The notes below the pieces were generated by a model, which was not told the DNA's origin, ran no database searches, and was given only the letters and a program-made list of their open reading frames with translations. Made by a program: the position numbers and the translations under genes. A DNA stretch of 64,000 bases from Bolinopsis microptera (Eukaryota > Ctenophora > Tentaculata > Lobata > Bolinopsidae): the NCBI RefSeq assembly GCF_026151205.1, contig NC_087084.1, positions 4,271,538 through 4,335,537 on the forward strand. The letters are read 5' to 3'. Of this stretch, positions 2,567-44,231 are shown piece by piece. Position 1 is the stretch's first letter, and each line of letters opens with the position of its first letter.

Positions 2567-5500
2567 CTAAATTGGCGTTTCTGCGATGATATCCTCGTTT
2601 GCTCTTACTTGCGATGCTCCCTCTATTTGATCTCCCATTTCTACAGCAGTAACTTGCAATCTTAAACATGTAGCGCCTCTTGAACATCTAGCAGCAAAAT
2701 TTCTGAATGTCTCACCAAACAACTCTCTGAGAGTGTTATCATATAGCAAAGGGTTGATGACCGAATTGAGGGGTAAAACTATCATAGCGAAGCTTACGTA
2801 CCAATCTGTAGCATCGATTGTTTCGAGATTGTGGAGCCCACTGATGATCATAAATGGAACCCAACAGGCGAAATCTGTGGCTATGACCAGCGCAATCCTG
2901 GTCTGTATTGCTCGGTTTCTGCGGACAGCATCTGGATTGCTACTTTGCCCAGCATTTCTGGATGATTTCCGAGATATAATGTTGATCATCAAATAGGACA
3001 CGGTTATCACCACAAAGCAGAAAAGGTTGACGCCCAACATAAGCCAAACTATCATATTTCCTTTCACGTCGATCATTTCCGTTTCCATGTCCGATATTAT
3101 GCGGTTTCTTCTAGGATCATCACTACGAACAAAGTATTTGAAGAGGCACACACCATCATTTCCGTAAAAGTGCACTGCACTTCTACTCAAGCTTTGGTTG
3201 AACATTCCATCAACTTTCTTGCCGATCTCAGCCCAAGTTGTATTCGCCAAAAAATTTTCAGTTTTGTAGTATGCTTGAAGAATTTTAATATGCTTCATTT
3301 TGTTCGGGAATCCGATAAATAGCTTGTAGAGTGGATCATAGAAGAAACCTTGCACAAAGTAGTCCTCTAATGTGGGGACCAATGGTATGATTGCTACTGA
3401 TATCGATGCAGTAGCGATTCCAATAACGATCCCAATTAATTTTGCTAATGCTCTTTTATTGACAAGGGCTGGAATGCTAAGAGAGCTGTTCAGAATTCCC
3501 CACATCCTGATCAAACTTAAAAGAGTCATCGAAAATAAAGAGAGTTGTGATCCCGCAGTGCTGATAACTCCAAGAACAGAACAAGTATTTCCTGATAACC
3601 ACTCAGCTTGCTTCCTGCAATAATTCTTTCCGAAAATAATGCTGTCGAATACTGATAGTGCGATCAAGTAGACTCCTATTAGGAAATCACCCATTCCGAT
3701 TACACAAATTAGTACTGTAGTGTATAAATTGCTTCTTGTTTCAGAGTCTTTAATACAAGTCGCTACTTTGCACACGGTGATGATATTAAAAATTGCTGCT
3801 AAGAGGCCCAACAACCAGCAATAAAGTTTCAAAAACCAGTTTTGGAGGATTTCCTTGCCACACTCTAGATTGCATTCATCTGAAAGATCAAAACAATCGA
3901 ATCTACCATCACACTTCTGAGAATGAGATATCAAGTGCTCTTTTACTTGATCTGACCGGTTGTTTGTATTCTCACAAACTATATGATTTGTACAGTTTTG
4001 TTCATCCGACATGTCACCACAGTCATCAACAAGGTCGCAAACTTGGCTGTACTTTATGCATTTAGTATTCTTACATTGGAAAATTGTATTTTCATATTCA
4101 ACTACATCAGACATTGTCACAAAAGTCAGGTTATTGTTGTTTGCCAGAGTTTTGACTCGGTCAGGATACTGACCAAGACATGAATCATGTTCTAAAAAAG
4201 TGTCCTGAATAGGACACGTGGAGTTTAAGCATAATCCCATGCAACTGATAAATGCATAATATTCACCGAAAAGACTATTGCAGTTTACTCGAGAGGTCGG
4301 CACATTGAGCATTATATTGACACCGAAAGCAGATCCTGCTGGCCCCTGAAATTCCCGTATATGACATGTTACATTTGTAGAGTCCAATGATTTGCACAAA
4401 TCTCGTCCAGCACATCTTTCATTCACAGCAGTGGTATTGATACTCGGAAAATCTCGCGAAATTCTGCAGACCTCATTTTCAATCTCACAAGAGTTCACAC
4501 CATCACAAAGAAAGTCAAAATGAACATAGCCTTGATCAGAATCTCCAGGACACAACAAAATATCCTGGCAGGTTTTGTTTCCTAAGACAACTCTATAAGC
4601 CAAATCATTTTTCTCTCCACAATATTTCCAAAAGTTTCTTTCTTCATCTTCTCCATTGAGACAATCGGTTTGGTTGTCCATTATCCATTTTATGGGTATT
4701 GTTATATTTCTATCGCCACCAAAACTACGAGTACAGTTGAAGAATCCCACTGTTGTTAGGTGGCATATGTCACGGGTCTCATCACTATTATCTTCACAGT
4801 CACTAACTCCATCACAGAGTTTGTGTTTGTGAACAACACAGTTTGCAGATATTGACCTACAATCGTTTTCTAGATTATCGTCACAGAGACTAATCTTTTC
4901 ATTGGTCAGCTTAAATTCACTTCCACAGAACACATATATAATACTTTGATACACTCGACATGAAACCATTTATCAAACAGGAACCACCCACTCTGTTTAC
5001 ATCAGTGCAATTTGTTTGTTCTAGATATCTGTAACAGTACGGATAGGTGTACGAGTATTCTTCACTGTGATCAAATACACTACACCTGGTGTAGTTAAAT
5101 ATGGGGACTGTAATGTCCTCTCCCCTCCTCACTTTCTTATAATAATGTATACATGTTGGTATTGTGGTGTTGTTACAGTGCTTCTCATCCTCCTTGTTAT
5201 AACAATCATCATCTGCATCACAAACATAGATTACAGGTATATACTTACTGTAATATTTACTAGGACAGTTAACTCCGTATGTGTAACCCTCACATACACT
5301 CTCATCCTCACAGTAGTCAGAGTCGCATTTGTCGTCACACTGATCTTCGTTGTTGCCGTTGATGAAGCTCTGTGATGATTCCTCACCAGAATTTCTTCTA
5401 CAGTTCTGGTTACACGCTACAAACTGTTGTACTTCTATATTTGTATCGTTCCTAAAATAACCTCCACAGAAATAAATGTTCTGTAAGGTAATTTTCGTAT

Positions 5501-5726
5501 GAAAACCACATGCCTGATAACCATACGGGTCATTTTCACACACAGTAGAGACACTAAAGAGTGTGTTACTCTCAGTGCCTGTTACATTATAGGTAGTGTT
5601 CGAATAAGCACACTTGTGGGAAGTACTCTTTTTTACTCTCATTATAACACAAGTGTTTCAAAAATCCCCCGATATTAGTCACAGTGCAGTTTTTGTTTGA
5701 TTGCTGCAAAATTTCGTCAACACATC
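2567..5726 (-). CDS. Terminal exon: LDLa-rich ectodomain and rhodopsin-family 7TM receptor
   Basis: Encodes a cell-surface G-protein-coupled receptor with a cysteine- and N-glycosylation-site-rich ectodomain. Counting from the ATG at 4969, LDL-receptor class A modules lie near residues 36-64 (CDGVSDCEDNSDE), 297-326 (CDLVDDCGDMSDEQNC) and 333-366. Seven hydrophobic segments follow at about 378-401, 415-440, 463-487, 510-530, 638-662, 690-711 and 723-743. Rhodopsin-like marks are GDFLIGVYL in TM2, an arginine after TM3 (SLIRMW in place of DRY), CWVPF in TM6 and NPLLY in TM7. LDLa plus TM2 recalls relaxin-receptor/GRL101-type GPCRs. The TM4-TM5 loop is unusually long, about 105 residues. The exon starts at 5726 after a TTCAG acceptor, phase 1. 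The frame breaks near an A6 run (5629-5634) and again between 4969 and 4917; each side continues the same Cys-rich pattern. These are either assembly indels or a decaying gene. Confidence 0.82.
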
Positions 5727-6414
5727 CTGAACAGCGAAATGTTATTATTTAAAAAAATAGAACCAAAACCCAAAATCTGATGCCCTATATTTTCATTGTT
5801 ATGTCGTAGTGCTTATACAGTTATAAGGGCTATTTAGCATTAATTGTATAATGAAATAAATCGTAACTTAATTAGAAAGTTTATTGATAGTTTAAGTTTT
5901 TAAGGTAAACTATACTGGAGTGGGTCCGAGCAGTAGACTCGCGCTACTGACACCCGGGATTGGTAATGCACAGATACAGTTAACGCTGTGTAGCAAGAGC
6001 TTCAGAGGATCCTGCCCGCTGCAGGTATGCTGAGTGGCAGATGCAACAAGCGCACTACTTCCAGCGGATGCAAGATGGCAGTCTGGCCATCAGAGTTATT
6101 CAGAACACTCTCCCTTTTAACTAGAAACATGTTGATGTCAGAGTTTCCAGCCTAATTTTGCTGTAAGAACATTCTCACAGCTTAATGACTAACGGTTCTG
6201 TGTACTGAGGCACAAAACCCCCCTATTTTACTCTCCCTCACTGTCTGTGTGTGGCTGCAGACTCCCAGTGGTCTTATCAGTCATTTTTGGTTGCTTGAGA
6301 TCTTGGACTTGTTGCTAGTGGGCTACCGACCCCTAGCTTTACTCTGGTACTCGCAAAGTTTTTTGCCACGCACCCGTTTATCAACATTACAACGAACTAA
6401 ACAATTACAGCACT
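5727..6414. other. Intron sequence and probable 5' part of RTE element
   Basis: This lies between the receptor terminal exon and the first recognisable RTE frame. Composition changes from AT-rich to more balanced near 5925, which may be the 5' end of the retrotransposon. No open frame with domain similarity was seen. Confidence 0.4.
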
Positions 6415-7347
6415 ATGGTTTCAGCCCCTACCTCTCCTTCTGATAGTCCAGCTCATGATGATGCTACATCTTTAAACCCTTCGGGGAGAGATGCAGCTGA
6501 TGGTATCTGTGTTAAAAGAAGGTCCAACAAAAAACCAAAAATTAACAACAAAATCTCAGAATCATTTCACCTTTCTACTTACAATGTAAGATCTCTCACT
6601 GAAAAATGGAAGCAATGGGAACTTGTGTGCAAAGCCAAAGCCTTCGACATACCTGTGATTGCACTTCAAGAACATCGTATTAAGAAGACTCCTTATATAA
6701 TGCGTGATGGCTACAAGTTCCTCCTAGCATCTCCTCCCCCTAAAAGTAGAACGCTCCTCGGACTTGGCTTCCTTCTTTCCCCTTGGGCCCAACGCTGCTA
6801 CATCGACCATAACGTCTTCTCAGACAGGATAATGTTTGTTTCTTTTACCGGTGCAGTTTGCACACACTTAGTTACTTGTCATTCACCTACTAATGTATCT
6901 ACAGACCTTGAAGTTGAACAATTCTATGCAGAGTTAACTTCTTGTGTCCGATCTTTTCCACCTCATGACGTAGTAGCTATAGCTGGTGACCTGAATGCTC
7001 ACCTTGGAAAAGACACCTGCAACACCAACGCATTTTATGAATGTACTAACCGAAACGGACAGCACCTTCTCGACTTTGCCCAAGAAAACGCGTTCACCAT
7101 CGGTGCGCTAAAGTTTAACAAAAAGCATTCTAAAAAGGTGACTTGGACAGCACCAAATGGTCAACTGCATCAGAATGACCACATCCTCATTCGCTCAAAA
7201 TGGCAGAATTCACTTAAAAACTGTGAGTCATACATTAATCCCTCGGTTCAATCTGACCATCGGATTGTCACAGCGACCATCAAGCTGTCAGTAAGGACCA
7301 GCATCGTCCGACCGAAGGTTATCAAATATTCGACTGGGAGGAGTTAA
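6415..7347 (+). pseudogene. RTE endonuclease (EEP) domain
   Basis: A 310-codon frame encoding an exonuclease-endonuclease-phosphatase domain, which nicks target DNA to prime reverse transcription. Expected catalytic blocks are visible in order: STYNVRSL, IALQEHRI, AGDLNAHLG, a WTAPNG...NDHI segment and QSDHRIV. The endonuclease itself therefore looks intact, with a Ser/Lys-rich N-terminal leader of about 45 residues. The frame ends shortly after SDH, and the polypeptide would normally continue into the RT; a stop at about 7345 and later frame changes break it. Sense strand is opposite to the surrounding host gene. Confidence 0.85.
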
Positions 7348-9388
7348 AAAGTAACACTGCAACTTCAACAGCCTTCCAACTCCAGCTTCAACTTAATGAC
7401 GCAGCAGAGAAAGTACTTCCCAAAAGGAAGAAGACTAGTCTAACTGCTCAAATTTCATTTAATCCTGAGTACCGGGCTGCTGTCAAGGCACGAGATGCTG
7501 CGTTGAAAGATAGTCACAAAAGGAAGACACGAGCTGCTACTAAAGCCCTACGTGATGCCACCCTTGAAGTCAGGAAGGTCGAAACCAGCATACAAGAATC
7601 GTTTGTTAATAAGACAATTGATCAAGTAGATCAGCTGTTTATTCCGCAACCCGCAAACCACTCAGGGTATGCAGCATGGCACACGAAGTCAAACAGCTCT
7701 GGTATTGCGTGGAAGCTTATAAATGACCTTACCAATCATAAGCCTAAATCTATGTCTCCATTACCTGGACACAGAAACAAGGCAGATCGAGCAAAGGCGT
7801 GGACTGACCACTACATCAAACTGCTTTACAATCCTGCTGACAACATCAGAATGGGTAGCTTTGAAGTCCAAAAGCCAGAACTCCCAATTGAAACGTCACC
7901 GTTCTCAGCAGATGAAATATCTACAGCTCTCAAGCAGACAAAGGACACGTACGGTCATGACGGAATTCATCTCTGCTGTACAAGTGTGTTGACTTGGACA
8001 CTACTTTACTATCTCTGTTCAACAACATGCTAGCTACTGGTAAAGCCCCAGAAGAGCTTCTTGTCACTGCCATTCTTCCTATACCCAAAGGAGCTAAAAA
8101 GTTCTGTCCTGAAAATAGCAGAGGCATCTTCATCCTCCCTGTTGCCACGAAAATCTACGACAGGCTGCTTCAAACCGAATCAGGAGCCACATAGAACCTC
8201 GCCTCCGATACAACCAGAATGGTTTCCGGCCTGGAAAAGGGACTCGTGAACAGATTCTGGCTCTTAGACGTATCATCGAAGAGGTTGTGAACTTCCAGCT
8301 TCCTTGTGTCATCTCCTTCATTGATTTCTCAAAGGCCTTTGACTGCATCTTCAGATCTCACCTTCCCGACATCCTGGCTTCCTACGGTTTTCCTAATAAA
8401 ATCATAAAAGCCATTATGTCACTCTTACATCAACACTAATGCTAAAATCATGACCCCTGAAGGTATAACCTTAGAATTCCTTACCAACCTCGGAATTCTC
8501 AAGGGCGATGTTCTTGCGCCTCTCATTTTTATCATCGTCCTGGATTTTATATTAAGACTGGCAATAGGGCCACGTGATGGGTTTAAAGTTGGCAGTAACT
8601 ACATTGCTGATTTGGACTTCGCCGATGACCTAGCAACAATTACTGACAGCTTCAGCGAAAATGGCCGCCTTTGCCAAAGCATTTCTGACATAGCAGCCCG
8701 TTATGGTCTCCTTATTAACATCGAAAAGATCAACTACATGTCCTACAACGTCCCGCGACCTGTCAACTCAGACGAAAGAGTCTTTATTAACGGCATCCCT
8801 TTAGAAGAAGTTCATGACTTTAAGTACCTAGGATCTTTTATAGCCTCAACAAGCAGAGACATCAATGTCAGGAAAGGCCTCGCATGGAAAGCTTTACAGA
8901 GTCTGGATGCTTTTTGGAAATCTAGTATGTCTATGAAGATCAAGACTAAGATTTTTCGAACTGCAGTAGAACCTGTTCTGCTGTATGGCGCAGAAACCTG
9001 GACTCTTAAAAAGGCTGATATTAGAGCACTAGACGGTGTTTATACTAGAATGCTACGAAGGGTCTTTGGTATCTCATGGAAATCACATACACCTAACTCC
9101 GTTTTTTATGGAAAGATTCCATCGGTGACAGATACTATAAAGACACGAAGATTTCGTTTTGCAGGGCATGTCTACCGTCTACAGGACCAACCTGCCCAAC
9201 AACTCCTTTTTTGGCAACCATCCTACGGCCAGCGTTATCGAGGACGACCACATAAGACCTTCCCGGATGTTCTACTCGAAGACACTGGAATGGAACCTTA
9301 CCAGCTGCGTTTGCTCATGTGTGATAGAGATAAATGGAGAGAAGCGTTGACACGAAACTCGTTCCAGATTTCATCTGGATCGACCTAG
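7348..9388 (+). pseudogene. RTE reverse transcriptase, two or more frameshifts
   Basis: Reverse-transcriptase coding sequence scattered over frames. A linker frame (7503-8033) leads to DEISTALKQTKDTYGHDGI. The next piece reads KGAKKFCPENSRGI..., then NQNGFRPGKGTREQILALR and SFIDFSKAFD (motif A) around 8190-8345. The last frame (8450-9388) has GDVLAPLIFIIVLD, DFADDLATIT (motif C, FADD), KYLGSFI and the C-terminal RFRFAGHVYRL...RGRPHKTF tail. Motifs A and C both keep their aspartates, so decay is by frame loss rather than active-site substitution. RTE assignment rests on the tail and the short 3' end. Confidence 0.85.
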
Positions 9389-9399
9389 GCAGGGCATAC

Positions 9400-9908
9400 C
9401 TGTATTACTAAAGCAGTGGAGCCAAATATTGTCCTCATGTTGACAGTTGTGTCTCAAAATCCGGGAATCGCAATCTGATATGTCAATATCATTCTCTTTA
9501 CAGCTTACGTCATCCATTACTATTGACATGTCAGTTCGTTTCAGCCAATCCCTGAATGATTGAATGGTTTGGTGCAGATTGCAGAATGTTCGGATATTCA
9601 AAATAGCAAAGAAACAGCATTTCCATTGCAACAGAAACTAAAATGTTGACATATAAATCAAACTCACTCAGGAACATATTTCATGTTTCTCGGATTACTT
9701 CCCCAGTCAGAGAAGTGATGTCCAATTGTCCAGCAAAAAAGCTGTGCCGAATACCAGTTAAACGCATTCTTGCAAACTGTTCCATTTTTCACCATACCAG
9801 TTTGCTTGTTAAAAACTGTTGCGATCAAAAGACCCCCGCTATCATTAAGTTTTTTCGTTCCAGTCACCATGTTGATAAGAGATGCTCTCTCAAACTCCCA
9901 CACACGCT
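9400..9908 (-). CDS. SRCR domain encoded by two exons
   Basis: Scavenger receptor cysteine-rich domain, an extracellular ligand-binding module, split by a 116-bp intron. Exon A (9908-9668) starts after TTTCAG in phase 1 and ends at a GTGAGT donor in phase 2. It carries NGTVCKNAFNWYSAQLFCW, matching the SRCR GTVCxxxFxxxxAxxxCxxLG block. Exon B (9551-9400) starts after ATTCAG, fits phase 2, and ends at GTATGC in phase 1. It carries VMDDVSCKENDIDISDC and CQHEDNIWLHC, matching the LDDVxCxGxExxxxxC and CxHxEDxxxxC blocks. Together they encode about 131 residues, slightly longer than a standard SRCR. The next compatible acceptor on this strand is the 7TM exon at 5726, across the RTE insertion. Confidence 0.82.
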
Positions 9909-10129
9909 CTGAAACAATTATGATAACAGTTAGTGAAGAATCGTATTTTTGAAAGAGCGAATTTACCCTCATTTAACATTCATTGATCCTCCCATGACTG
10001 GTTTGATAATACACGAAATCGCAGTATCGGATCAAACAATGTCTAAAATATAAATTTAATTACACTTCTTAAAATAATAACATTGTCACCCACATCTGTA
10101 CTAAGGTACTATACTACCAAAGCACTAAC

Positions 10130-10594
10130 CTATATTATAATAAGAGGTAGTGCTGCCTGTACTAAGCTCTATTCTGCTCACTTCTCTTCCCCAATAAGTA
10201 TTCCATTTTACATAACTACACGTTTCAGATGATGCTGTTATGTCGAGTACCTGTTTTCCATTACAATATACTATGATCCTGTAGCCACGTTTCTCTACTA
10301 CCCAGTGTTTATCTGTTTCTGTAGGTAGACTCTGGAAGGGAGTGTTGCCTAACTGACAAAAGTGAAGCCAATACTTTACACGAGTACTGAACTGGATACC
10401 AATACCTCCTACTTCTTCTCCTTCCTCACTATAGAAATATATCCCTATCTCCTCCCCACTACCGACAGTGCTGTCTGTTCTCAGGTGCAGGTAAGAAGTA
10501 TCCAGATCAGCAGGGATACTTTTGTAATTAACCACAGGGCTCCACTTATCTGTTGATTTGTAAGTTATGATAAACTGGGTTGAAATGTTTTGAG
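10130..10594 (-). CDS. Exon for a beta-sandwich-like extracellular domain (copy 1)
   Basis: A phase 1-1 exon of 465 bp (155 residues) with acceptor GTTGCAG and donor GTTAGT. Its product alternates hydrophobic and polar residues as in a beta sandwich: VGSGEEIGIYFYSEEGEEVG, LPTETDKHW, YRIIVYCNGKQVLDI, a TC and a W...W pair near the end. The same layout occurs in the exon at 41138-41575 on the other strand, with LPSPTDKVWR, VRVVIHCNEVEVLNI and SQATCSNSDW, so both belong to one domain family. It resembles farnesoic-acid O-methyltransferase-like (Methyltransf_FA) or galectin-like modules, but I cannot fix the name. A 221-bp intron separates it from the SRCR exons, which supports one transcript. 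Confidence 0.7.
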
Positions 10595-10672
10595 CTGCAA
10601 CACGGATCTTAGAAATGTCGATTATTAGAATTATAATATTATATAATATATATATAATATATAAATTTAATA

Positions 10673-11305
10673 CTTTCAACACTACTATATAACAAATAAT
10701 TTGAGATAACGATGTTTAATAAATGATGCAAAGAATTTCGAAGATCTAATCAACACCGACTTTTAATGTGTAGGAGTACAGCAACGAAATATATATATAT
10801 ATATATAAGTTTTTTAATTATTTTCAACACTACTACATAACAAATAATTTGAGGATGACTGTAAAGGTACATTTTACCGACAATTGAAGTCAAGGCATTG
10901 TTTTACTGACAGTTGTGGCTGACTAACAATATATATATGAGAAGACTTGATTATGAACATCTCAGTTACAATTAATAATTTGATTAATACGGTAGATGGG
11001 GTGAGTTATTTTCATAGTGCAAATTTTAAAACCATAGAACCATCTTATAATGAACATTATGGAATGATAAAAGGCTTATCATGGTTGACGGTTAAAGTTA
11101 CAGAATGGAAACGTGCAATATGTATATCGTAATATACATGATTTAAAATGTATTACCTAATATATATATATATATATATTTCATGGCTGGACTTCTACAC
11201 AATAAAAGAAAGCGGTTGTGATTAGATCTTCGAAAGTCTTTGCATCGTTTATTTACATCAATTCTCAAATTATTTGTTATATAGTAGTGTTGAAAGTATT
11301 ATTAT
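10673..11305. repeat. Inverted-repeat element with about 85-bp arms
   Basis: The arm at about 10673-10755 (CAACACTACTATATAACAAA ... GAAGATCTAATC) returns as its reverse complement at about 11217-11305. A third partial copy lies at 10823-10853. TA-dinucleotide runs sit at 10788-10808, 11160-11180 and 11305-11320. The spacer has no domain-bearing frame. This looks like a non-autonomous fold-back or MITE insertion in the first intron of the receptor gene. Confidence 0.6.
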
Positions 11306-11316
11306 TATATATATAT

Positions 11317-11415
11317 ATCCTGGGTTTGTACAGGACATTACTCGCTCAAATTATTACAATAGCGATACATAATACTCAATAAATTTAATAGATTTGTAGT
11401 GTTGCAATTAGTTTA
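11317..11415 (+). repeat. Dispersed repeat, copy 1 (partner at 48470-48575)
   Basis: Both copies contain TATCCTGGGTTTG, ACATAATACTCAATAAAT and TAATAGATTT, with interspersed substitutions. They lie in the same orientation. No coding potential was seen, so it is probably an old non-autonomous transposon. Confidence 0.55.
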
Positions 11416-13140
11416 AGATTATATATGAATTAGTAATAACTAGCAGGAACCCGCCTAACCCTAAAGTGGTATCAAGACTCAAGAGACTAAAATAATTATT
11501 ACCTAATTAATTCGCGTTTTTGACACCACTTGGGGGTCCAAATTCTGGGCACTAAAATTCTTATTCCTCGGCCAATTTTTTATTTTGTCATGCTGATTTG
11601 AAGGCCATTAAAGCATTTCAACCAGTCAAAAAAATATAAGTTGTATATCTTTTACGGTTATAAAATCATCACGGGAAAGTTTTAATATGTGATTTGTTAC
11701 CAGCATTTTTTATATGTTCGTAATTATTTGTTTTTCGCCCCTCAGGAATGAATAGTACAACCCCTTTCAAGAGTCCTTTACTGCATAATTAATTTGTATT
11801 TCGTCCGAAGGGCTTTCCATAAAAAAAATACTTGGTCCATTTATTGATGTTTCACTTTTCACAGCAGTTTCCTTTTCAGAGTTTGAGTTTATATTTAGAA
11901 ACTAACCATACTATTTTTTAGATTTATGTCACTCATGATGGCTCCGGCTGAAAGTACTATGACTCATTTTATCTAGAAGATTGTAGTTTCATTGCTTCTG
12001 AAGTAGCTATCAGTTCGCCGGTCAATGTTGGGTATAATACACTTGTTATTTGTTTTTTAATTCAGTTTCACACGTAAGGTGCATTCGTGTAGATTTTTTT
12101 ATTGTGTATGGAGTTGGACATGGGTGAGGTTAGCACGTGGGATTTTAGGGTTAGTGTTAGTCACGTGAGGGTTTATACGTGCATTCTTCTTTATTTTTCT
12201 TCAGAGATTTAATGGTTTAGTATTTTAGGATTTTAGTAAGTAGGGGGAGGTTTGGTCGAATTTGTCAATACCTTGAGATATTGACGAAATCGATTAAATC
12301 TTCCCGGGGGATATAGTGTAATGTGGAAGCTGGTTTCAGCAGTTTAAGTGTAGTGATATTTTAGTTAGGATATTGTAGTTTAGTGAATTATACCTTTATG
12401 ATTAGTGCTTGATTAGATTTGATTAGTGTTGTAGATTAGGATTGGTTTTGGAGGTCACGCGGTAGTCAGGGTAGTTAGTTAGGTTATATTATTGGACACA
12501 CTGAGCCAAGTGTTGCCGAGTAACGCAGTGCTGGTAATTCTCATCTGTTACAGTCAGTTCTTAGGGTGGCTTGCTAGGTGCAGTTTAAATAAGTTACCGC
12601 TGCCGAAAAACACTGTAACGTGGCCGGCGAGTCACTAGTTTCGTTTATTGATTGACTGTAATTTATCACGCTTCGAAACTTGTTGTTCGAATACACTGTT
12701 TCCTTTGTTCATACCTTACTTAGGATCCGATCAAGTCATTCGATCATATTGAAAGTAATACGGCACTCAGTAGCCTGTAAGAGTTAAAGTACAATAGTTA
12801 CCGATACTTGAATTAGCGTATTATTCATTTATCACAGCACGTGTTTCTTGCAGAGCTAGAGGTTTGTAAGTATCCGTGTACGACACTTCATTATCGTACC
12901 CTTGTTATATCTTTTCAATTACAGTACTTCAGATTGTTCCCCTTCTCTGCAGTACCCGTACGATACTAAAATCTCGTACCTATCGTGTTAGATTAGCGTT
13001 CGATACTTGATTATATCGTGGGTTTTGTGGGGATTTGTCGCAGGACGACTAAGTCAGTATAGTGTGTAGTGAGTAGTACTTGTGAGCAGGCAGTGTTTAC
13101 CATTGGTACGCCCCGGGAGGATTAGTCTGGTCGCTACACC
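11416..13140. other. First-intron sequence without recognised features
   Basis: AT-rich on the left, becoming more mixed after 12000. No long frame, tRNA or clear repeat boundary was found. The stretch just before 13140 runs into a LINE 3' relic and may include its degraded body. Confidence 0.4.
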
Positions 13141-13380
13141 TTATTTTACTCTACAACTATCCTCTGCACTGGATCCCACAACATGGTAAAAGAGGTAAAA
13201 CTCGAAAAACTGGTTGTCATGTGTCCGAGAGGATGCAGCAATCTTCACAGGTGTTGATAACATTAGGATAGAAGATGCAGAACAACTAGCAACAAACAGG
13301 GTACAATGGAGAGGTCTAATACACCGGTGAAAGGAGTTACTATGTGGTGCAGGCCACTCCAACGACCTTTTCAAGTACAA
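13141..13380 (+). mobile_element. LINE 3'-terminal relic
   Basis: Reading the plus strand and allowing a frame change gives LHWIPQHGKRGKTRKTG, later EDAEQLATNRVQWRGLI. This matches the C-terminal tail of many RTE-related reverse transcriptases, where a W-x-P-x-GKR-x-GRP block is followed by AxxRxxWRxLV. Stops and one frame change show it is a fossil. It is too short to place in a clade. Confidence 0.45.
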
Positions 13381-13570
13381 GTAAGTATAAGAAGATGGTT
13401 AGCTATTATGTAAAGTTTGAAATTGAAGGAGTTTGAGGTAACTAAAGGAGTAGACTGTAAAGGGCGCTGAAGGCAATCTTCTGAGATAGCTGGAAAACAT
13501 TTTTATCCGGAGATACCGTAATTAAGTATGTTCTATTTTAGAGAATTCACAATTCAGAGCAGTGACTCAC

Positions 13571-13691
13571 CCTGGTTCCCCTTCACAGTTTCAACATCTT
13601 CTGTGGCCTCAGTTCTCACACCATCATTAAGCACCAGCGTTAAACTGCAGGTAGAAAAATTTAGCAACACTATCAGGTTAACAATCACCAT
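13571..13691 (-). CDS. Signal-peptide first exon of the receptor gene
   Basis: An ATG at 13691 on the minus strand opens 40 codons plus one base, then a strong donor GTGAGT (phase 1). The start MVIVNLIVLLNFSTCSLTLV is a short hydrophobic secretion signal. An acidic stretch follows (TEATEDVETVKGNQ). It is too short for usual gene finders, but start codon, signal, donor and phase all match the next phase-1 acceptor at 10594. Linking it to the downstream domains is inference from phase and order. If right, the mature protein begins soon after residue 20. Confidence 0.6.
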
Positions 13692-13869: not shown

Positions 13870-14612
13870 GACATAAGGATGGGGAACACGAGGGCGGGGA
13901 ACACGAGGACGGGGAACACGAGGACGGGGAACACGAGGGCGGGGAACAAGAAGGCGGGGAATAAGAGGGCGGGGAACAAGAGGGCGGGGAGCACGAGGAT
14001 GGGGAACAAGAGGGCGGGGAACAAGAGGGCGGGGAACAAGAGAGCGGGGAACAAGAGGGCGGGGAACAGGAGGGCGGGGAACAAGAGGGCGGGGAACACG
14101 AAGGCGGGGAACAAGAGGGCGGAGAATATACGGGCGGGGAACAAGAGGGCGGGGAACACGAGGGCGGGGAACAAGAGGAGGGGGAACAAGAGGGCGAGGA
14201 ACAAGAGGGCGAGGGACAAGAGGGCGGGGAACAAGAGGGCGGGGAATAAGAGGGCGGGGAACACGAGGACGGGGAACACGAGGGCGGGGAACACGAGGGC
14301 GGGGAAAAGAGGGCGGGGAACAAGAGGGCAAGGAACAAGAGGGCAAGGAACAGGAGGGCGGGGAACAAGAGGGCGGGGAACACGAAGGCGGGGAACAAGA
14401 GAGCGGGGAACACGAGGACGGGGAACAAGAGGGTGAGGAACAAGAGGGCGGGGAACAAGAGGGCGGGGAACAAGAGGGCGGGGAACAAGAGGGTGGGGAA
14501 CAAGAGGGCGTGGAACACGAAGGCGTGGAACACGAAGGCGGGGAAAAAGAGGGCGGGGAACAAGAGGGCGGGGAACAAGAGGGCGGGGAACACGAAGTTG
14601 GCGAACACAGCC
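13870..14612. repeat. 15-bp GC-rich minisatellite
   Basis: About 48 tandem copies of GGGGAACAAGAGGGC with variants (CACG for CAAG, GAC or GAT for GGC). Because the unit is a multiple of three with few stops, it gives long artefactual frames on both strands. It lies about 180 bp upstream of the exon-1 start codon on the minus strand, that is, in the likely promoter region. The plus strand has regularly spaced G4 runs that could form quadruplexes. Confidence 0.95.
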
Positions 14613-19123: not shown

Positions 19124-21240
19124 TCATGTACTGGCCAGAGAGTCGACGAATTTCTTGCGGTTGTTAAAACACGTAGTGGCAAATCTAGCAACGACTCTCG
19201 TGAGGTGGACTTGACTTTCATTCGTGATTAATTCAATGATTTCACTGTTGTTGCTGATGAATTTGAGCACGTTTGCTCCAGGGATGACAGTGTAAACAGA
19301 ACAAGATGACGCAGATGGTTTGATTGAATTTGATATGATTGATTGGATCTTGTCTAGGACTTTTCGCCTCGATGCAGCGTTAAGATCACAATGGTTAAGG
19401 AAGTGATCTTCATTCTCAATAATACCAGAACCTAAGACTATATTGCACCAGGAGCATATTCGCTCATCGCGAGGAGTTTGATTATATCGGCCAAGTTCAA
19501 TTTCGAGTCGATGTGCACTGATCCGCAGTCTTGTGATATTAGCACGGTCTGCATATTTAATGACACTGTCTAGGTAATACTCTTTGTTAAATTTGGATTT
19601 TAGGTCACGATAGAATTCTAATTTCCGAGAAGTGTTGATACAGGACCCCCAATATTCTCTAAAGCTACTTTTCAAAGTTTTAGTAATGACGTGTGGTGTG
19701 AATATTTTACTCCCGATGGGTTGTGTTGATTGCGGAGGAATTCGTTTCTTGAAACCGTTGTGAATAAGAAAGTCCTCTTTTGGTGGTTTTGCGATACTCG
19801 GGTTACTTTCGAAAATTGACTTGGAGTGATTGTTTTTGAGTGTGCGGTAGGCTGTGACATGTTCGGTAGAGAAACATGGGTCTAGCGCGAGGACAGGCTC
19901 CAAACCTCTGTACCAGTCCAATTTCATGTTCATCTGTTCTTTGAAAGCTAAGGATACAAGGGAGTTATCTTTGAGATTTTTCAAGCGTTGGGTATATTTG
20001 AGAGTGAGGTTAATACATTCATAGATTAATGGGTAGCGGCCTGACTCACCCCAGACGCCTGCGTTACTGGTTTTACGATTTACACCCAGTGACCATTTAA
20101 GAAAGTGAAGGTGAACTTTTTCGCTGTCCAGAAGACTAATTTTCTTGAGGATACTAGTTTGAAATTTTGTTTTTGTGTCGGGATCCATATTGAGATCGAC
20201 TTGTTTTGTTATGTGTTTTATGATAGCCATATTAGGTGTGTAAATAGGCGCTCCGTAAAGAACGATAGGTTTAATAAGAGCGTCAAAGAGTGTTGTTAGA
20301 GAACGGAATGATAATTTGGATTTGTTTACTGAGCTTTTCATGCCATAAAGTGCACGCATGGCTTTCTTTTTGAGCTCAGTTCGGGCATTTGTGAATGTGC
20401 CGGATTTGTGTATTTCGATTCCTAGATAACAGTATGACTCGACTTCTTCTAACAAGTGATTACCTATTTTGAGGGGAACCGGCTGATAATTATCGAAGCG
20501 GGAATTAAATTTCATGAGTTTAGTTTTATTTGCATTAATTTCGACGCCCCATTCCAAGCAGAAATTGTTCAAAGCATCGAGTTGCTTTTGGAGGGTTTTG
20601 GGGTCCAGTGCCAAGAGTATCAGATCATCTGCCCATAGTAAGTGACTGATAAGTTGGTTCATTAGTTTTGGACAGTTATCAAATTCTAGTCGAGGGGAAA
20701 GATCTCTAATGTATATTTTAAAAAGATCAGGGGAAAGTGGATGACCCTGTTCAGTTCCTTTATTGATATCAAATTTTTCGCTGACAAATCCAGATAGCTT
20801 TATCTGGCCAGTGGAATTTTTATACATATGTTTAAGAACATTAAATGTTTTGCCAGTGATACCTAGTTTAGCTAACTTTAAGAAAAGAGCTTCACGACAA
20901 ACAGAGTCGAAAGCTTTCCGGAAGTCCACGAAAACAGCATAGACGGGAACCTTGAGCTTTTTGTATTTAGACGTAATGGTGTTGAGTGTGAGTATGTGGT
21001 CATATGTTTGAGCTCCTTTAGCGAAGCCAAGTTGATTTATGGGGTCCGGGTTGTATTCATTTTTGAACTTGATTATCCTGTTTAGCATAATGGTCGAGAA
21101 TAGTTTCCCGATTGTACTACTCGCCTTTTTTGTGTAGGGGTGTTATAATGCTGTTGTTCCACGGGTAAGTTCCAGTGTCCAAACAGCGGTTAAATACTTT
21201 GCAAAGGAGTTGTGTATTTGTTGTGGACAAGCTCCACTAA
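19124..21240 (-). mobile_element. 5'-truncated LINE, reverse transcriptase part
   Basis: A 654-codon frame (21088-19124) encodes the RT core and C-terminal region of a non-LTR retrotransposon. Motifs include NQLGFAKGAQTYDH, VYAVFVDFRKAFD (motif A), KGTEQGHPLSPDLFK (motif B) and SHLLWADDLILLAL (motif C, ADD). The C-terminus has a CSWC...HFLNHC zinc-knuckle. A further RT piece (CKVFNRCLDTGTYPW...ITPLHKKG) lies in another frame just upstream (about 21240-21135), then about 13 residues are missing before SSTIGKLFS. No endonuclease is present, so the copy is 5'-truncated. It belongs to the same broad family as the LINE at 26770-30990. Confidence 0.88.
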
Positions 21241-27540: not shown

Positions 27541-27612
27541 TCCTTTTTCATTTCTTCATCTTTTCACCTTCTTTTCGTTTCTCTCCAGGTCCCTCTCTGA
27601 CCTTTCCTCATC
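27541..27612 (+). other. ORF1-ORF2 spacer of the LINE
   Basis: A pyrimidine-rich 72-bp gap (TCATTTCTTCATCTTTTCAC) between ORF1 stop and ORF2 ATG. The frames do not overlap. Confidence 0.5.
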
Positions 27613-30600
27613 ATGGACTTTGCTAACTCTATTATCTCCTGGAACGTAGCAAACATCCATGGCCTGCTTGGTAGCAAGACAGAAGATCCAGACTTTCTCA
27701 ATTTTATCACACCTCACGACGTTATCTGCAACTCGGAGGCCAATTTTGAAGCTCTCCAAGCAGAAATTAGCAATCTCCGCGAGACCCCCGAGGATGAAAT
27801 TCTTCTTGTTGGTGATCTCAACGCCAGAATAGGCTTGTCAACCAAGCTGCTGTTGTACGACAGAGCTGAAGAATTTGAGCTATTCCCAGAAACAGGCCGA
27901 ACTTCCCAGGCCATGATAGTTCCTGATTCTGTCCCAATATCAAAGAGCAGATGGAGTGAAGACAAGTGCACTAATAGTCATAAGAAGCAACTTCTTGACC
28001 TCTGCGGATCAGAAAACCTACTCATCCTGAATGGACGTACCATTGGGGATTCCACTGGAAAGTACACCTGTTTCAAGTGGAATGGCAACAGCGTAGTGGA
28101 CTATTTCATAGCATCTTCCAACTTCCTTCATAGAGTGAGAAGTCTGACAGTCGGTGAGCACACCTTGTACTCGGACCACAACCCAGTTCTTCTCAGCTTG
28201 CGGAAGCAGCATTCGGTGATGAACACTCAAACACCTGGAGATTCCACCCTCCGTTATGATGACGCTCCATTCCGATACAAGGTCTCAGAAAACAGTTTAC
28301 TCAACTTCGCCCAGTCGTTCGAGGAGCCAGATATAGTCAACAGAATCTCGAACTTGCACAATGCTGCTGACGCTATCCCGACTACCCAGCAAGGGGTGAA
28401 GGAACTGAGTGACAAGATAACTGATCTCATCAATTGCCTGGCAAAAAGAGAACTCGGTGTCTCTAAGCAAGCAAAGCATCCTAAACCAAAGTTCGATTCT
28501 TGGTTTGATGGTAATTGCCATGCAGCCAGGCGACTCTTCAAGCGGTCAATCAAAGTTGTCGACCAAAACCCCGACAGTCAAAGGATCAAAGCACGACACC
28601 GTGCCAACTCGAAAAGTTACAGGAAGATCATCAATAAAAAGAAGGATGACTTTTTCAAAAGACTGAACAAAAAAATCAAGAATGGTAAAGCTATCTCTTG
28701 GCGGGATTTCAAGAAATTAAAGAACTTTAAGAAAGATGAGGTTCAAACCGATCCCGAACAGCTCCAAACTTTTCAGAATTTTTATGCTGATCTTTACTCC
28801 GACTCCCACCCAACTGTTGACAGTCTTACTAAGAAAGCCCTTCTTGAAGAAGCTGACACATTTGCTAAAGGATCCGTGCCAAACGAAGCTTTAAACAGCC
28901 CTTTTACCATTGAAGAGCTGAACGGTGCCATCAAAAGTCTGAAGACTGGCAAAGCGTCATCCTTTGACCATGTCAGTAACGAGATGATCAAAAGCCTAAA
29001 CGAGAACATGAGAAATCTACTTCTTAAACTTTTCAATCTCTGTTTGACCACAGGTGTGTATCTTTGGAGTAAAAGCGTGATAACGCCGTTACACAAGAAA
29101 GGCTGCATTAGAAATCCCGATAACTACAGAGCTATTGCAGTCTGCAGCTGCATTGGCAAGCTATTGTCAACAATGCTGCTATCGAGACTTGTCACACACC
29201 GGCAAACGACACATTCAGATCCGCCCAATCAAGCTGGATTCACCAAAGGGAGCCAATGTAATGATCACATTTTCACTCTGATATCGATCATTGAGAAGTA
29301 CAAGAGAGTAAAGCAGAAGGTCTTTGCTATATTCATTGACCTTCGTAAAGCCTTTGACCTTGTATGTCGACAGGCCCTCCTATTCAAACTATCATGTTAT
29401 GGTGTTAATGGTGGGTTCTACAACATCATCAAAGACATGTACAGCAAGTCGGAAGGACATATAAAGATCAATGGCAAAATCAGTGAAGCCTTCAGTATCC
29501 TGAAAGGGACAGAGCAAGGTCACCCTCTTAGTCCAGAATTGTTCAAGGTGTACTTCAAAGAGCTCTCTGATCTCCTCAACGAAGCCCTAGCCAACTGCCC
29601 CATGCTTGCAGGACTTTCAGTAACTCATCTAGCCTGGGCTGATGATTTAGTTATTCTTGCCCTTGACCAAGAATCGCTGCAAAAGCTAATCACGATCATC
29701 ACGACGTACTGCGATAACTGGGGACTGGAAATCAATATATCCAAAACCAAGTTTATGGTTTTCAACAGTAAAGCTCCGGATACCCCTAGTTGGCGTCCCA
29801 AAGCACATGGCAACGACATCGAGATGGTCTCCCACTACTGCTATCTTGGCATTCTTATCAGTAGCAATGGTAAATTCCGACAAGCCACTGATTCTCTTTA
29901 CCGCAAAGGGCTCGGAGCATATTTCAGCCTCAGAAGCACAATCGATCGCAGATTTGTTGACGCCTCATGCTTCCACAAGCTTTTCAACTCACTGGTTAAG
30001 CCCATCTTACTGTACGGCTGCCAAGTCTGGGCACCCACTCTTCCAGAGGTAACAAAAGTTCTTTCGTGCCTCATGAGGGATCAAAACTTGAACAACTCAA
30101 TGACCCACATGGCAAAGCAACAAATCGAGCAGGTTCACCTCCGTCACCTGAAGTTCCTCCTTGGGATAAACAGACGGGCTACCAATGCAACTGCATGGGG
30201 TGAGACAGGTTCGTACCCACTACTGATCGAAGTATTAAAACTAAGTGTCAAATACTTCAAAAGGATAATGGGTCTCCCATCGTCTCAACTGGTGAAGGCT
30301 GCTATGACTGAGCAAATAAACTTGCATCTTTCGTGGTACTCTGGAATAGAAAACATCATCAAGTGCTTCAACAACATTGATCCTAGAACATATGCAAGGA
30401 ACTCTTCGCTTCTACTCAACGCAACTGCGTTTGCAGACGCTTGCAGTCCAGACGAGCTGGTAAATAACTTTCAAAAGCTTTTTACAGACTCCTGGAGATC
30501 AAAGATTAACGAGAGCAGGAAACTCACTTTCTACAAGGACGTCAAAACAGTCTTTGCATGGGAGCCTTACCTCGATTATGCAAGAACTCTCAATGACAGA

Positions 30601-30990
30601 AGATCAACAGCTCAAATAAGGTGCAGTTCTCACAGACTCAGCATAGAAATTGGGAGATACGACAAAACACCTCTAGAGAGCAGAACTTGCACCTTTTGTG
30701 AACTGAAAGGATCAACCGGGATCATAGAGGATGAAACACACTTTCTCACTTCCTGCCCACAAGGGAAGGCTATCAGAGACAAGTTTACCAGAGCTAGTGA
30801 AAGCTTGGGAAACAGCAATGACAACGGACTGAACAACATTGTCAACACTCTCTCTCGTACCGAAGATCTTTACGGTAACCTTAACGAGCAGGATGTGAAC
30901 TTGATTAGACTTTCATGCTCAACCATCAGAGAAATGTACAGTCTGAACCTCAAGCACAAAGACAGCCTTCGTGATGAAGATGGAAAGTAG
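27613..30990 (+). CDS. LINE ORF2: partial endonuclease, reverse transcriptase, zinc knuckle
   Basis: An uninterrupted 1125-codon frame from ATG. The endonuclease N-terminus has IISWNVANIHG and ends a strand with DVICNSEA; LLVGDLNARIG follows only about 25 residues later, then VDYFIAS and LYSDHNPVLL. The intact RTE endonuclease in this window has about 100 residues between the equivalent E and GDLN blocks, so roughly 80 are deleted in frame here. RT motifs are complete: NQAGFTKGSQCNDHI, IFIDLRKAFD, GTEQGHPLSPELFK, LAWADDLVILAL. The tail carries CTFCELKGSTGIIEDETHF...C. Length and lack of stops suggest recent activity of the family, but this copy probably could not cut its own target. Confidence 0.88.
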   Translation: MDFANSIISWNVANIHGLLGSKTEDPDFLNFITPHDVICNSEANFEALQAEISNLRETPEDEILLVGDLNARIGLSTKLLLYDRAEEFELFPETGRTSQAMIVPDSVPISKSRWSEDKCTNSHKKQLLDLCGSENLLILNGRTIGDSTGKYTCFKWNGNSVVDYFIASSNFLHRVRSLTVGEHTLYSDHNPVLLSLRKQHSVMNTQTPGDSTLRYDDAPFRYKVSENSLLNFAQSFEEPDIVNRISNLHNAADAIPTTQQGVKELSDKITDLINCLAKRELGVSKQAKHPKPKFDSWFDGNCHAARRLFKRSIKVVDQNPDSQRIKARHRANSKSYRKIINKKKDDFFKRLNKKIKNGKAISWRDFKKLKNFKKDEVQTDPEQLQTFQNFYADLYSDSHPTVDSLTKKALLEEADTFAKGSVPNEALNSPFTIEELNGAIKSLKTGKASSFDHVSNEMIKSLNENMRNLLLKLFNLCLTTGVYLWSKSVITPLHKKGCIRNPDNYRAIAVCSCIGKLLSTMLLSRLVTHRQTTHSDPPNQAGFTKGSQCNDHIFTLISIIEKYKRVKQKVFAIFIDLRKAFDLVCRQALLFKLSCYGVNGGFYNIIKDMYSKSEGHIKINGKISEAFSILKGTEQGHPLSPELFKVYFKELSDLLNEALANCPMLAGLSVTHLAWADDLVILALDQESLQKLITIITTYCDNWGLEINISKTKFMVFNSKAPDTPSWRPKAHGNDIEMVSHYCYLGILISSNGKFRQATDSLYRKGLGAYFSLRSTIDRRFVDASCFHKLFNSLVKPILLYGCQVWAPTLPEVTKVLSCLMRDQNLNNSMTHMAKQQIEQVHLRHLKFLLGINRRATNATAWGETGSYPLLIEVLKLSVKYFKRIMGLPSSQLVKAAMTEQINLHLSWYSGIENIIKCFNNIDPRTYARNSSLLLNATAFADACSPDELVNNFQKLFTDSWRSKINESRKLTFYKDVKTVFAWEPYLDYARTLNDRRSTAQIRCSSHRLSIEIGRYDKTPLESRTCTFCELKGSTGIIEDETHFLTSCPQGKAIRDKFTRASESLGNSNDNGLNNIVNTLSRTEDLYGNLNEQDVNLIRLSCSTIREMYSLNLKHKDSLRDEDGK

Positions 30991-41137: not shown

Positions 41138-41575
41138 GTTGGTTACCAGTGATACGTGAGGTGGAAATAGAGTGGGATCTTCAGTCGACACCTTTAGAAA
41201 TTAAAACTAATAGTGTGCTGGGGAGTGGCGATAAGGTGGTAGTGGACTTCTACTCTGCTGGGGGAGCATATGCAGGAAGAGTCGGGCTCTGGTTCACCTC
41301 TACTCCGGGATACTTAATCAACTGGTGCGGCATGTCCTACACTAACCTCCCTGTTAATCTCCCCTCTCCTACTGACAAGGTGTGGCGTATCACTCTAACC
41401 AGAACTGCAGGTGTTAGAGTAGTGATACACTGTAACGAGGTAGAGGTGCTCAACATACTGCTCTCTCAAGCAACGTGTAGTAACAGTGACTGGAGCACGA
41501 TCTGGATCTGGGACGTAGCAAAGATAATGTTCCATCCCGCCGACACAGCATCTGATTACTACGCAACACAACCAG
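41138..41575 (+). CDS. Exon for a beta-sandwich-like extracellular domain (copy 2)
   Basis: A phase 1-1 exon of 438 bp (146 residues), acceptor TTAACAG, donor GTGACT. It encodes VLGSGDKVVVDFYSAGG, LPSPTDKVWRITLTRTAG, VRVVIHCNEVEVLNI, QATCSNSDW and an ADTASDYY end. The same motifs in the same order occur in the minus-strand exon at 10130-10594. The fold may be a lectin-like or Methyltransf_FA-type sandwich; I cannot name it with certainty. It follows the signal-peptide exon of this gene and precedes the Cys-rich repeats, giving a secreted or surface-exposed protein. Confidence 0.75.
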
Positions 41576-42302
41576 GTGACTAATAACAACAAGCATTGGT
41601 TTAACAAACAATAACTTTAATTTACAAATAAGCCAACTTGCTGATTCTCTCGTAAGCTCGTGATTACGTGTTTTCTGTCTAAATTTCAAGTATGCCATTT
41701 AGTTATTTAACATAAACACATATATTATAGAATATGGGATATAAGATAGTTAGTACATATTGTTATTTATAACTGAATAAAGTGGTCATCATTTTATCAA
41801 TTACTATTTTACGAATGAGATAAAGTCAGATTCTTCCAGATTGCAAAATGGCTAACTATAATTTAGAAATATTGCATATTTTGTAGTAGACATCATGGAG
41901 ACAAGCCATTTTCAGCTACTAAAGGTTGAAACAATTATCAATTGTAAACTGACGTTTTTACAAAATATCTTGAACATAAGCAGTAAGGTATTTTACCAAA
42001 CAAACTCAAAACTTTTTTGGTTCAATATTTATTTTGCAGAGTTTACACAATTTGTGCATCGTGCAATGGGCATTGCTTCATAGTTTGTTGATGAGGCGAA
42101 TTTTTAGCGTTAATCCTTATGACTTATAACAATTTGAATTAGTATTGTGCTTAGAACCAAGAAAGAAAATTTGTGGTACAAAATTACAAGAATCGTAAGA
42201 GTCTGGGTGGCAATAATTTCTTCGAAAAACCGTGGAATATGTGGATATTTAATTTTTCACATTTCTACTATAATTCAGAGAATTCCCTTTGTACACTGTA
42301 CG
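41576..42302. other. Intron 2, left part
   Basis: No coding exon recognised. From about 42150 it contains the first copy of the intronic sequence that is tandemly repeated downstream (TTGTGGTACAAAA ... AAGAGTCTGGGTGG). Confidence 0.5.
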
Positions 42303-42560
42303 TACGACCGCCCACGTGCAAATTAGATGAAAAATATGACTTTGCTTAGTAACTGCATGGTAACGAGGGTTATTAAGTTATTACACGCACGTGCACTTGC
42401 AATGATTGTTTTAACGTCATTTTGATCAGTTTTGTTGATAATACGATTTGTTTAGTACGAGCAACATTTTAATTGGCTGTATCTTCAGTTGTGTAGGATA
42501 ATTTATGACACAATTTAAACTTACTAACACAAAATACTATTAGCTTTCTCCCTTTGACCA
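42303..42560 (+). repeat. Dispersed repeat A, copy 2
   Basis: Matches 18512-18740 (CGACCGCCCACGTGCAAATT, ACACGCACGTGCAC, TAGTACGAGCAACATTTTAA). It is absent from the later tandem copies of this intron, so it inserted in unit 1 only or was lost from the others. Confidence 0.7.
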
Positions 42561-42688
42561 CGGGTTTTCTAGTATTGTTATAAATCTAATGTTATTGTAA
42601 CACATCTTAACTGCACTTAAATAGTTATATAATAACGATTTTCTTATCTTCCACTACGATTTGCCAATTTTAGATTTATTAATTCCAG

Positions 42689-43375
42689 AGCCGTGTGGAG
42701 AAGGAACATATCGGAATGATGCTATGACAAGCTGTGAGACATGTGACGCTGGATTGACACCAAACTCTGATAAAACAGCCTGTGGTAAGATAACTTTGAA
42801 GCTTATTAAATTGAATATTATTGTTATGTTTTAAATTTGAATTAACTGTGCTATAGAATGAAAACCGAGGACATTGGTACTCACAATAACTTCTTGATAT
42901 TAATATACTTACATAGTAACGATTTTCTTATCTTCCACAAAAATTTGCCATTTGTAACATTATAATTGTAGAGCCGTGTGGAGAAAAATTATATCGGAAT
43001 GATGCTATGACAAGCTGTGAGACATGTGATGCTGGATTGACACCAAACTCTGACAAAACAGCCTGTGGTAAGATAACTTTAAAGCTTATATTTAATATTA
43101 TTGTTGTGTTTTAAATTTGAATTAATTGTGCTATAGAATGAAAACCCAGGATATTGGTACTCACAATAATTTCTTAATAATAATAAGGTAGTTCAAACGA
43201 ATTGCTGCTGAACGATTTCCCAATTCTTCAGAGCCATGTCCAGCTGGAAGCTACAAGAACATTGATATGAACACATGTAAAGAATGTTCTGATAACACGA
43301 TCAGTTCAGAAGGAGCAGCCTTGTGTACAGCTTGTGAACTTGGCCAGGAACAAAACTTAGGGAGAACAAAATGTG
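42689..43375 (+). CDS. Three Cys-rich repeat exons, first cluster
   Basis: Three phase 1-1 exons: 42689-42784 (32 residues), 42972-43067 (32) and 43232-43375 (48). The first two encode EPCGEGTYRNDAMTSCETCD followed by AGLTPNSDKTAC; in the second, GEK-L replaces GEGT. The third encodes EPCPAGSYKNIDMNTCKECS and CTACELGQ. This CPxGxYxxxxxxxCxxC pattern is that of ephrin-receptor/GCC2-GCC3 or TNFR-like EGF-type repeats, extracellular modules held by disulphides. Acceptors are TTCCAG, TTGTAG and TTCTTCAG; donors all GTAAGA. Since every exon is symmetric, gain or loss of any one keeps the frame. Confidence 0.85.
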
Positions 43376-43711
43376 GTAAGAATTGTTAACAAGAACCGAG
43401 CTGAGATGATTATATCTATATTATATAGATGGGCAAAGATAGGCTAAGGGTTAAGACGTGATAAGGATAAGGCGCCAGATAGGGCTTAGAATCAAGAAAG
43501 CAAATTTGTGGTACGGAAAGACAAGAACCGTAAGAGTCTTGGTGGTAATCATTCTATCTAAAAACCGTGGTTGTGTGGATATTTAATTTTTCACCTATTG
43601 TTTTAAATCTTATGTAATTGTTACACATCTGAAGTGTACTTAAATACTTATATAATAACGATTTTCTTATCTTCCACTACGATTTGCCAATTTTAAATTT
43701 ATTAATTCCAG

Positions 43712-44099
43712 AGCCGTGTGGAGAAGGAACATATCGGAATGATGCTATGACAAGCTGTGAGACATGTGACGCTGGATTGACACCAAACTCTGATAAAACA
43801 GCCTGTGGTAAGATAACTTTGAAGCTCATTAAATTAAATGTTATTGAATTTGAATTAACTGTGCTATAGAATGAAAATCGAGGATATTGTTACTCACGAT
43901 TACTTAATAAGCTAGTTCAAACGAATTGCTGCTTAACGATTTCCTAATTCTTCAGAGCCATGTCCAGCTGGAAGCTACAAGAACATTGATATGAACACAT
44001 GTAAAGAATGTCCTGATAACACGATTAGTTCAGAAGGAGCAGCCTTGTGTACAGCTTGTGAACTTGGCCAGGAACGAAACTCAGGGAGAACAAAATGTG
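43712..44099 (+). CDS. Two Cys-rich repeat exons, duplicated cluster
   Basis: Exons 43712-43807 (32 residues, identical peptide to 42689-42784) and 43956-44099 (48 residues). The latter differs from 43232-43375 at a few positions (for example CPDNT for CSDNT, QERNSG for QEQNLG). Introns are also near-copies, so this is a recent tandem duplication of an exon pair. The middle 96-bp exon of the first cluster is missing. Phase 1 throughout. Confidence 0.85.
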
Positions 44100-44231
44100 G
44101 TAAGAATTGTTAACAAGAATCGAGCTGAGATGATTATATATATATTATATAGAGGGGCAAAGATAGGCTAAGGGTTAAGACGGGATAAGGATAAGGCGCC
44201 AGATAGGGCTTAGAATCAAGAAGGCAAATTT

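Follow-up and report, generated by a model that had tools for sequence, protein, structure and literature searches.

Among the described receptors closest to the locus analysed here are the type C2 leucine-rich repeat-containing G-protein-coupled receptors (LGRs) of snails, starfish and cnidarians, exemplified by GRL101, in which several LDLa repeats accompany an LGR-like rhodopsin-type seven-transmembrane domain (7TM). The locus lies on the minus strand of a 64,000-nucleotide stretch of the genome of the ctenophore Bolinopsis microptera (NCBI RefSeq assembly GCF_026151205.1, contig NC_087084.1, positions 4,271,538 to 4,335,537; hereafter the window) and shares both traits with GRL101. However, type C2 receptors have leucine-rich repeats (LRRs), whereas the family to which the window locus belongs has an outer domain and an SRCR domain instead, and no LRR was found in it. 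In Biomphalaria, GRL101 receptors have expanded locally and gained a C-type lectin as a further recognition module (PMC12297450; papers cited by accession, here and below, are used within the parts of their text that were available). The relaxin receptors RXFP1/2, the type C1 LGRs, likewise join LDLa to an LGR 7TM, and RXFP1 ranks with the best matches of the B. microptera receptor to solved structures, but they combine one LDLa with LRRs, whereas the family described here has several LDLa repeats, no LRR found, an SRCR, the outer domain and a long second extracellular loop.

SRCR domains on G-protein-coupled receptors (GPCRs) are known from Adhesion GPCRs of amphioxus and sponge, accompanied in amphioxus by LDLa (PMC2246102, PMC4302439). 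These constitute another family, since the 7TM studied here matches 7tm_1 and LGRs, with no GPS reported. In a survey of 29 metazoans, 7tm_2 is among the top domains of the SRCR proteins of Acanthaster (PMC10855680). Mnemiopsis has 55 SRCR genes with novel domain combinations, LDL domains included, but an SRCR joined to an LGR-like 7TM or to the outer domain is not described in the available parts of that account (PMC11797021). The accessible portions of the open-access literature yielded only Adhesion-family or lectin variants of a receptor combining SRCR, LDLa and a rhodopsin-type GPCR, which is consistent with the statement, made in a preliminary description of the locus from its letters alone, that no standard family has this exact order.

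Our reading, to which we give a probability of roughly 0.55, is that the window locus is one copy of a large, modular and diversifying family of LGR-like, rhodopsin-type recognition receptors, in which a signal peptide would precede an outer domain that evolves fast, an SRCR of group-A type and a cysteine-rich LDLa stalk fused to a conserved 7TM.

A large family with a constant exon order

The family is large, its exon order and junctions recur at ten loci, and its domains evolve at unequal rates. Relatives were sought in the organism's own assembly (264.65 Mb, 232 contigs), where the LDLa-7TM query gave 666 candidates; the best 56 of these, which were scored, contain 57 matches at 56 loci, with 48-100% identity. 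At all ten loci compared (the window and nine paralogs), the outer domain, the SRCR and the LDLa-7TM part follow one another in the same order and on the same strand, and the GT/AG dinucleotides of introns 2-4 are conserved. The intron-1 acceptor is at the expected place in six of the ten, the exon start having been extrapolated by script in the other four. Exon 5 is open to the stop in eight of the nine paralogs (1,034-1,064 codons); that of the C12 copy is open across the 765 codons fetched, with one TAA in the longer 7TM match. From the spliced outer domain to the stop, the frame is open in seven of the eight copies tested (C12 left out), the copy at C10:10.3 stopping at 181; the spliced lengths of 1,328-1,358 are each one too large, owing to one extra codon at the outer-domain/SRCR border.

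The outer domain itself has at least 151 matches in the genome. When 149 of the 151 were compared with the 57 LDLa-7TM matches, 21 of the latter had an outer domain within 10 kb 5' and on the same strand, whereas none had one 3' of it or on the other strand; within 20 kb, the corresponding counts are 23, 1 and 0. The rest of the LDLa-7TM matches, most of them of lower similarity, may carry a different ectodomain, or an outer domain too remote to appear among the matches listed.

The five-exon model of the window gene (Table 1) had been proposed in the preliminary description, whose exon borders and phases hold, as do its SRCR, LDLa and 7TM domains, whereas the open frame of exon 5 does not. 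All four introns have GT-AG borders, and the phases (1, 1-1, 1-2, 2-1, 1) are compatible. Exons 3 and 4, when joined, match PF00530 (E 1.9e-9 in a Pfam domain search), in agreement with the split SRCR proposed. Group A SRCR domains are split over two exons and have six cysteines; judged by its six cysteines and its split, the present domain appears to be of group-A type.

Exon 1, with its ATG, hydrophobic start and strong phase-1 donor, is the sole candidate for the proposed signal-peptide exon in the 5.4 kb upstream, where 0.08 candidates of this type are expected by chance at a donor score of at least 5 and 0.59 at a laxer cut-off. It has 11 matches genome-wide, itself included, and the other ten, compared by eye, each lie 5' of a family member on the same strand, at distances of 2.9 to 57 kb; the farthest of them support its place in the gene weakly. 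At C10:1.59 Mb, exon 1 is conserved together with its ATG and donor. A 15-base minisatellite of about 47 copies occupies 13881-14592, just upstream of exon 1.

Table 1. Exons, segments and intronic element of the receptor locus, in window coordinates
Feature	Position	Strand	Remarks
Exon 1	13571..13691	-	ATG, signal-peptide-like start, phase-1 donor at end
Exon 2, phase 1-1	10130..10594	-	Outer beta-rich domain; no Pfam model
Exon 3, phase 1-2	9668..9908	-	First SRCR part; kept in paralogs
Exon 4, phase 2-1	9400..9551	-	Second SRCR part; PF00530 E 4.3e-6 alone
Exon 5	2567..5726	-	Ectodomain rich in cysteine, with LDLa repeats, and 7TM; frame broken twice
Exon 5, open middle segment	4917..5657	-	246 codons, one weak LDLa
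Exon 5, open last segment	2567..4969	-	800 codons, LDLa and 7TM
LGR-like 7TM part and short tail	2570..3889	-	phmmer matches to TSHR, RXFP1, LHCGR
LINE (long interspersed nuclear element)	5915..9393 (approx.)	+	Endonuclease and reverse transcriptase, several frame breaks; inside intron 4, six bases within donor

One gene interrupted by a LINE

In the window, the SRCR and LDLa-7TM parts are 3.7 kb apart with a LINE between them, an arrangement that could suggest two genes, one for a secreted outer-domain/SRCR protein and one for an LDLa-7TM receptor starting near 5726. Such a division is highly improbable, and we reject it on two grounds: intron 4 measures only 182-207 nt between the flanking codons in six LINE-free paralogs, with donor and acceptor dinucleotides conserved, and a relative on C9 combines its SRCR (E 1.2e-10) with its LDLa (E 3.7e-10) in a single open frame that continues, as far as a run of N, into a match to the initial part of the 7TM (query 12-610). 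Thus, the junction between SRCR and LDLa-7TM is real in the family. Further against two genes, no candidate first exon was found in 9400-5727, and there is no in-frame ATG just upstream of 5726. The earlier proposal of one gene joining signal peptide, outer domain, SRCR, LDLa and 7TM is therefore upheld by the common order at ten loci, the short intron 4 and the C9 frame.

Intron 4 consists almost wholly of the LINE, an element that the preliminary description did not mention. The flanking codons are separated by 3,677 nt in the window, by 4,304 and 7,298 nt in two other copies with the LINE, and by 1,924 nt in C12; the same LINE is present at C10:7.48, at C10:1.59 and, decayed, at C10:8.53. 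When the 3' part of the LINE was used as a query together with the adjoining exon, 35 of the 40 scored genome matches ended at query 389-397 (window ~9393), and four, those of the window and three C10 loci, continued into the SRCR exon. The concentration of ends places the end of the LINE at about 9393 and makes the donor hexamer (9394-9399) host sequence, so that a donor supplied by the LINE, which was also considered, is rejected. The 5' end near 5915 coincides with the point where the matches of LINE-free paralogs stop. No target-site duplication of at least 7 bases was found.

Identity of the membrane, stalk and outer domains

Both domains predicted for the last exon are present, as LDLa (E 1.4e-14) and 7tm_1 (E 1.3e-11), although the exon reads in three frames and not in one, as had been assumed. 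The 7tm_1 match (PF00001) reaches 44.9 bits in the window and 43.1 in an intact paralog, against a curated cut-off of 30.5, and LDLa (PF00057) is found in three stretches of the 800-codon segment, with one more below the cut-off upstream. Compared by phmmer with solved structures only, the 7TM best matches TSHR (1.5e-14), RXFP1 (6.7e-14) and LHCGR (9.4e-14), against 2.6e-6 for the mu-opioid receptor; by this pairwise similarity among solved structures it appears to be LGR-like. Its second extracellular loop is lengthened, with about 108 residues between aligned blocks versus 25 in TSHR. By eye, the end of transmembrane helix 3 has the Arg of the DRY motif and lacks its acidic residue, and transmembrane helix 7 has NPLLY. 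Pfam scans of the window segments, of the exon 5 of the intact paralog and of the C9 relative gave no LRR family, and for exon 5 Pfam gives LDLa and 7tm_1 only, with neither 7tm_2 nor GPS/GAIN reported. A structure model of the 7TM (predicted local distance difference test, pLDDT, 41.6) was not used.

The outer domain, labelled 'SAND' in our analysis and unrelated to the Pfam SAND domain, has no Pfam match in its window copy. It was initially described as sandwich-like; its model is indeed all beta, but it is a single weak one (mean pLDDT 51.5) with no significant match, so that the sandwich fold is weakly supported and was not retained. Rows for influenza haemagglutinin and similar PDB entries (E 0.39 or worse) are noise, as are phage rows at E 0.6, and no relative was confirmed in the viral and bacterial collections. 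The outer domain is a widespread extracellular domain without a Pfam model, for which a curated family is missing. A further copy lies in the window at 41.1 kb (34% identical to exon 2, E 3e-24), as a phase 1-1 exon at 41138-41575 (+). It is followed at ~42689-44100 by cysteine-rich exons, repeated, TNFR/ephrin-receptor-like and of phase 1, whose joined pieces match Ephrin_rec_like (E 9.4e-7); by its domain content, the locus at 41138-44100 appears to be another mosaic extracellular gene.

Unequal rates of change across the domains

Pairwise ratios of nonsynonymous to synonymous divergence (dN/dS) were estimated by the Nei-Gojobori method in eight paralogs (28 pairs; the window and C10:10.3 left out, and C12 too for the first SRCR exon). 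The outer domain has a mean dN/dS of 1.31 (dN above dS in 22/28 pairs) and the first SRCR exon one of 1.14 (13/21 pairs); the second SRCR exon, the LDLa stalk and the 7TM have means of 0.47, 0.54 and 0.21, respectively. The outer domain also changes faster than introns: its dN of 0.174 compares with 0.066, 0.069 and 0.101 in three introns (36 pairs, window included), and it exceeds the intron distance in 34/36, 35/36 and 10/10 pairs.

Codon models gave a similar picture. For M2a versus M1a, twice the log-likelihood difference (2dlnL) for the outer domain is 81.5 with nine sequences and gaps, 91.7 with eight gap-free sequences, 102.8 with several starts and 67.2 after removal of the first 12 codons, and the maximum in null simulations was 4.64 (10 completed). 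The stalk gave 93.9, its replacement-rich part being alignment columns 121-240, and the 7TM 0.00; the two SRCR exons gave 6.4 and 0.1. Among the neighbours at C10:1.64, 1.74 and 1.78 Mb, the 7TM is near identical (dS 0.007-0.018) and the outer domains are divergent (dS 0.058-0.197), a pattern of synonymous distances that indicates gene conversion or exon exchange.

Recognition and competing functions

If the receptors serve recognition, the outer domain, perhaps with the SRCR and part of the stalk, would bind variable ligands, of which non-self or cell-surface molecules are the likeliest; the LDLa stalk would pass the binding signal on to the 7TM, roughly as LGRs with LDLa do, and the 7TM would then activate G proteins. 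The modules had been called immune or allorecognition in type, which the outer-domain dN/dS above 1 (versus 0.21 in the 7TM), the codon models and the faster-than-intron change make likelier, short of proving it. Nothing specific on allorecognition in ctenophores was found in the accessible parts of the open-access literature.

Several observations weigh against this reading. Of the 14 sites called, six lie among the first eight residues, a stretch with an uncertain exon edge, and the codon models were run with in-house code and not with a standard program. Synonymous divergence differs by domain (for C10:1.78 vs C10:1.74, 0.197 in the outer domain and 0.011 in the 7TM), and the trees of different domains disagree; the codon-model statistic may therefore be raised by gene conversion or exon exchange. 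The absence by eye of the acidic DRY residue leaves ordinary G-protein coupling unproven. Moreover, several copies are damaged: the window copy is frame-broken in exon 5, the copy at C10:7.48 Mb lost the start of exon 1, that at C10:10.3 has a stop within the SRCR, C12 has a frame break in the SRCR besides the TAA in its 7TM match, and the outer domain is decayed at C10:8.53.

Fast evolution is also seen in reproductive and chemosensory proteins, and the rate pattern of immune recognition would equally arise from gamete or chemosensory recognition. The outer domain could then track molecules of prey, conspecifics or gametes and not of microbes, a reading we hold to be rather unlikely. In its favour, the sensory organs of starfish reportedly contain GRL101-like receptors (PMC6267866), and GPCR clades of Mnemiopsis, which arose by radiation inside the ctenophores, are over-represented in scans for selection (PMC13231562). 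However, immune recognition is the more typical setting for an SRCR partner, and eight of 12 differentially expressed Mnemiopsis SRCR genes are up on Vibrio re-exposure, although the present family is not identified in the available parts of that study (PMC11797021).

Less likely still is that these are ordinary hormone receptors of the relaxin/GRL101 type, with relaxed constraint and gene conversion behind the variation of the ectodomain. Such a role would suit a 7TM closest, among solved structures, to glycoprotein-hormone and relaxin receptors, the multiple LDLa repeats, as in GRL101 (PMC4079206), and the domain dependence of dS; it is opposed by the outer-domain dN, which relaxed constraint does not lift above intron divergence, by the lack of a hormone-binding LRR domain in the Pfam scans and by the presence of at least 56 loci.

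Returning to the recognition-receptor family, we tentatively propose, as a possibility somewhat ahead of the gamete or chemosensory one, that the LGR-like 7TM and the LDLa stalk are kept uniform by gene conversion, while the unnamed outer domain, present in at least 151 places on shuffleable phase-1 exons, diversifies by positive selection and exon exchange. This would give a large ctenophore repertoire of G-protein-coupled recognition receptors.

State of the window copy

Exon 5 of the window reads in three frames because of two private insertions, of 1 base near 5620 and of 7 bases near 4937-4943, which occur in none of the eight other aligned copies. Those eight have private indels only in lengths divisible by three, apart from C5:5.97, where lengths of 5 and 10 add up to 15. 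The window copy is probably a duplicate that was damaged recently, or else one with errors of assembly. Thus, the large single GPCR of the preliminary description is supported as the architecture of the family and is probably untrue of this copy as it stands. That the copy is a dead pseudogene, a mere relic of the family, is slightly favoured by us, given its two private frame-breaking insertions and the LINE it has in common with C10:7.48, C10:1.59 and, decayed, C10:8.53. However, its splice sites are intact, its segments are otherwise open, exon 5 is open in both other LINE-sharing copies, and an assembly from error-prone long reads can carry false insertions (PMC10232365, if this is the same assembly). 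The B. microptera assembly described there has 13 chromosome-scale scaffolds, obtained from long error-prone reads with gap closing and polishing, and Iso-Seq data were produced for the species as well (PMC10232365).

Other features of the window

Outside the receptor locus, the window contains a LINE-type open frame of 1129 codons at 27601-30990 (+), with endonuclease and reverse transcriptase matches, and a second reverse transcriptase at 19124-21142 (-). Fragments of a MULE-like transposase occupy 44247-46172, and the short tandem motifs at both ends are mutual reverse complements. The region 54000-56500 is homopolymer-rich and noisy-looking, contains short repeats in a degraded state and resembles sequence from long reads that were not polished; the list of open reading frames suggests that this extends up to 64000.

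Implications

How early-branching animals recognize microbes or other individuals is largely an open question, and an absence of bona fide Toll-like receptors was reported for the Mnemiopsis genome (PMC11797021). With its many copies, its short and regular genes, a signalling part that is conserved and an outer domain that is selected, the family is directly testable. If the proposed repertoire is real, animal defence or self/non-self recognition would here rely on rhodopsin-type GPCRs for signalling, in place of Toll, NLR or immunoglobulin receptors.

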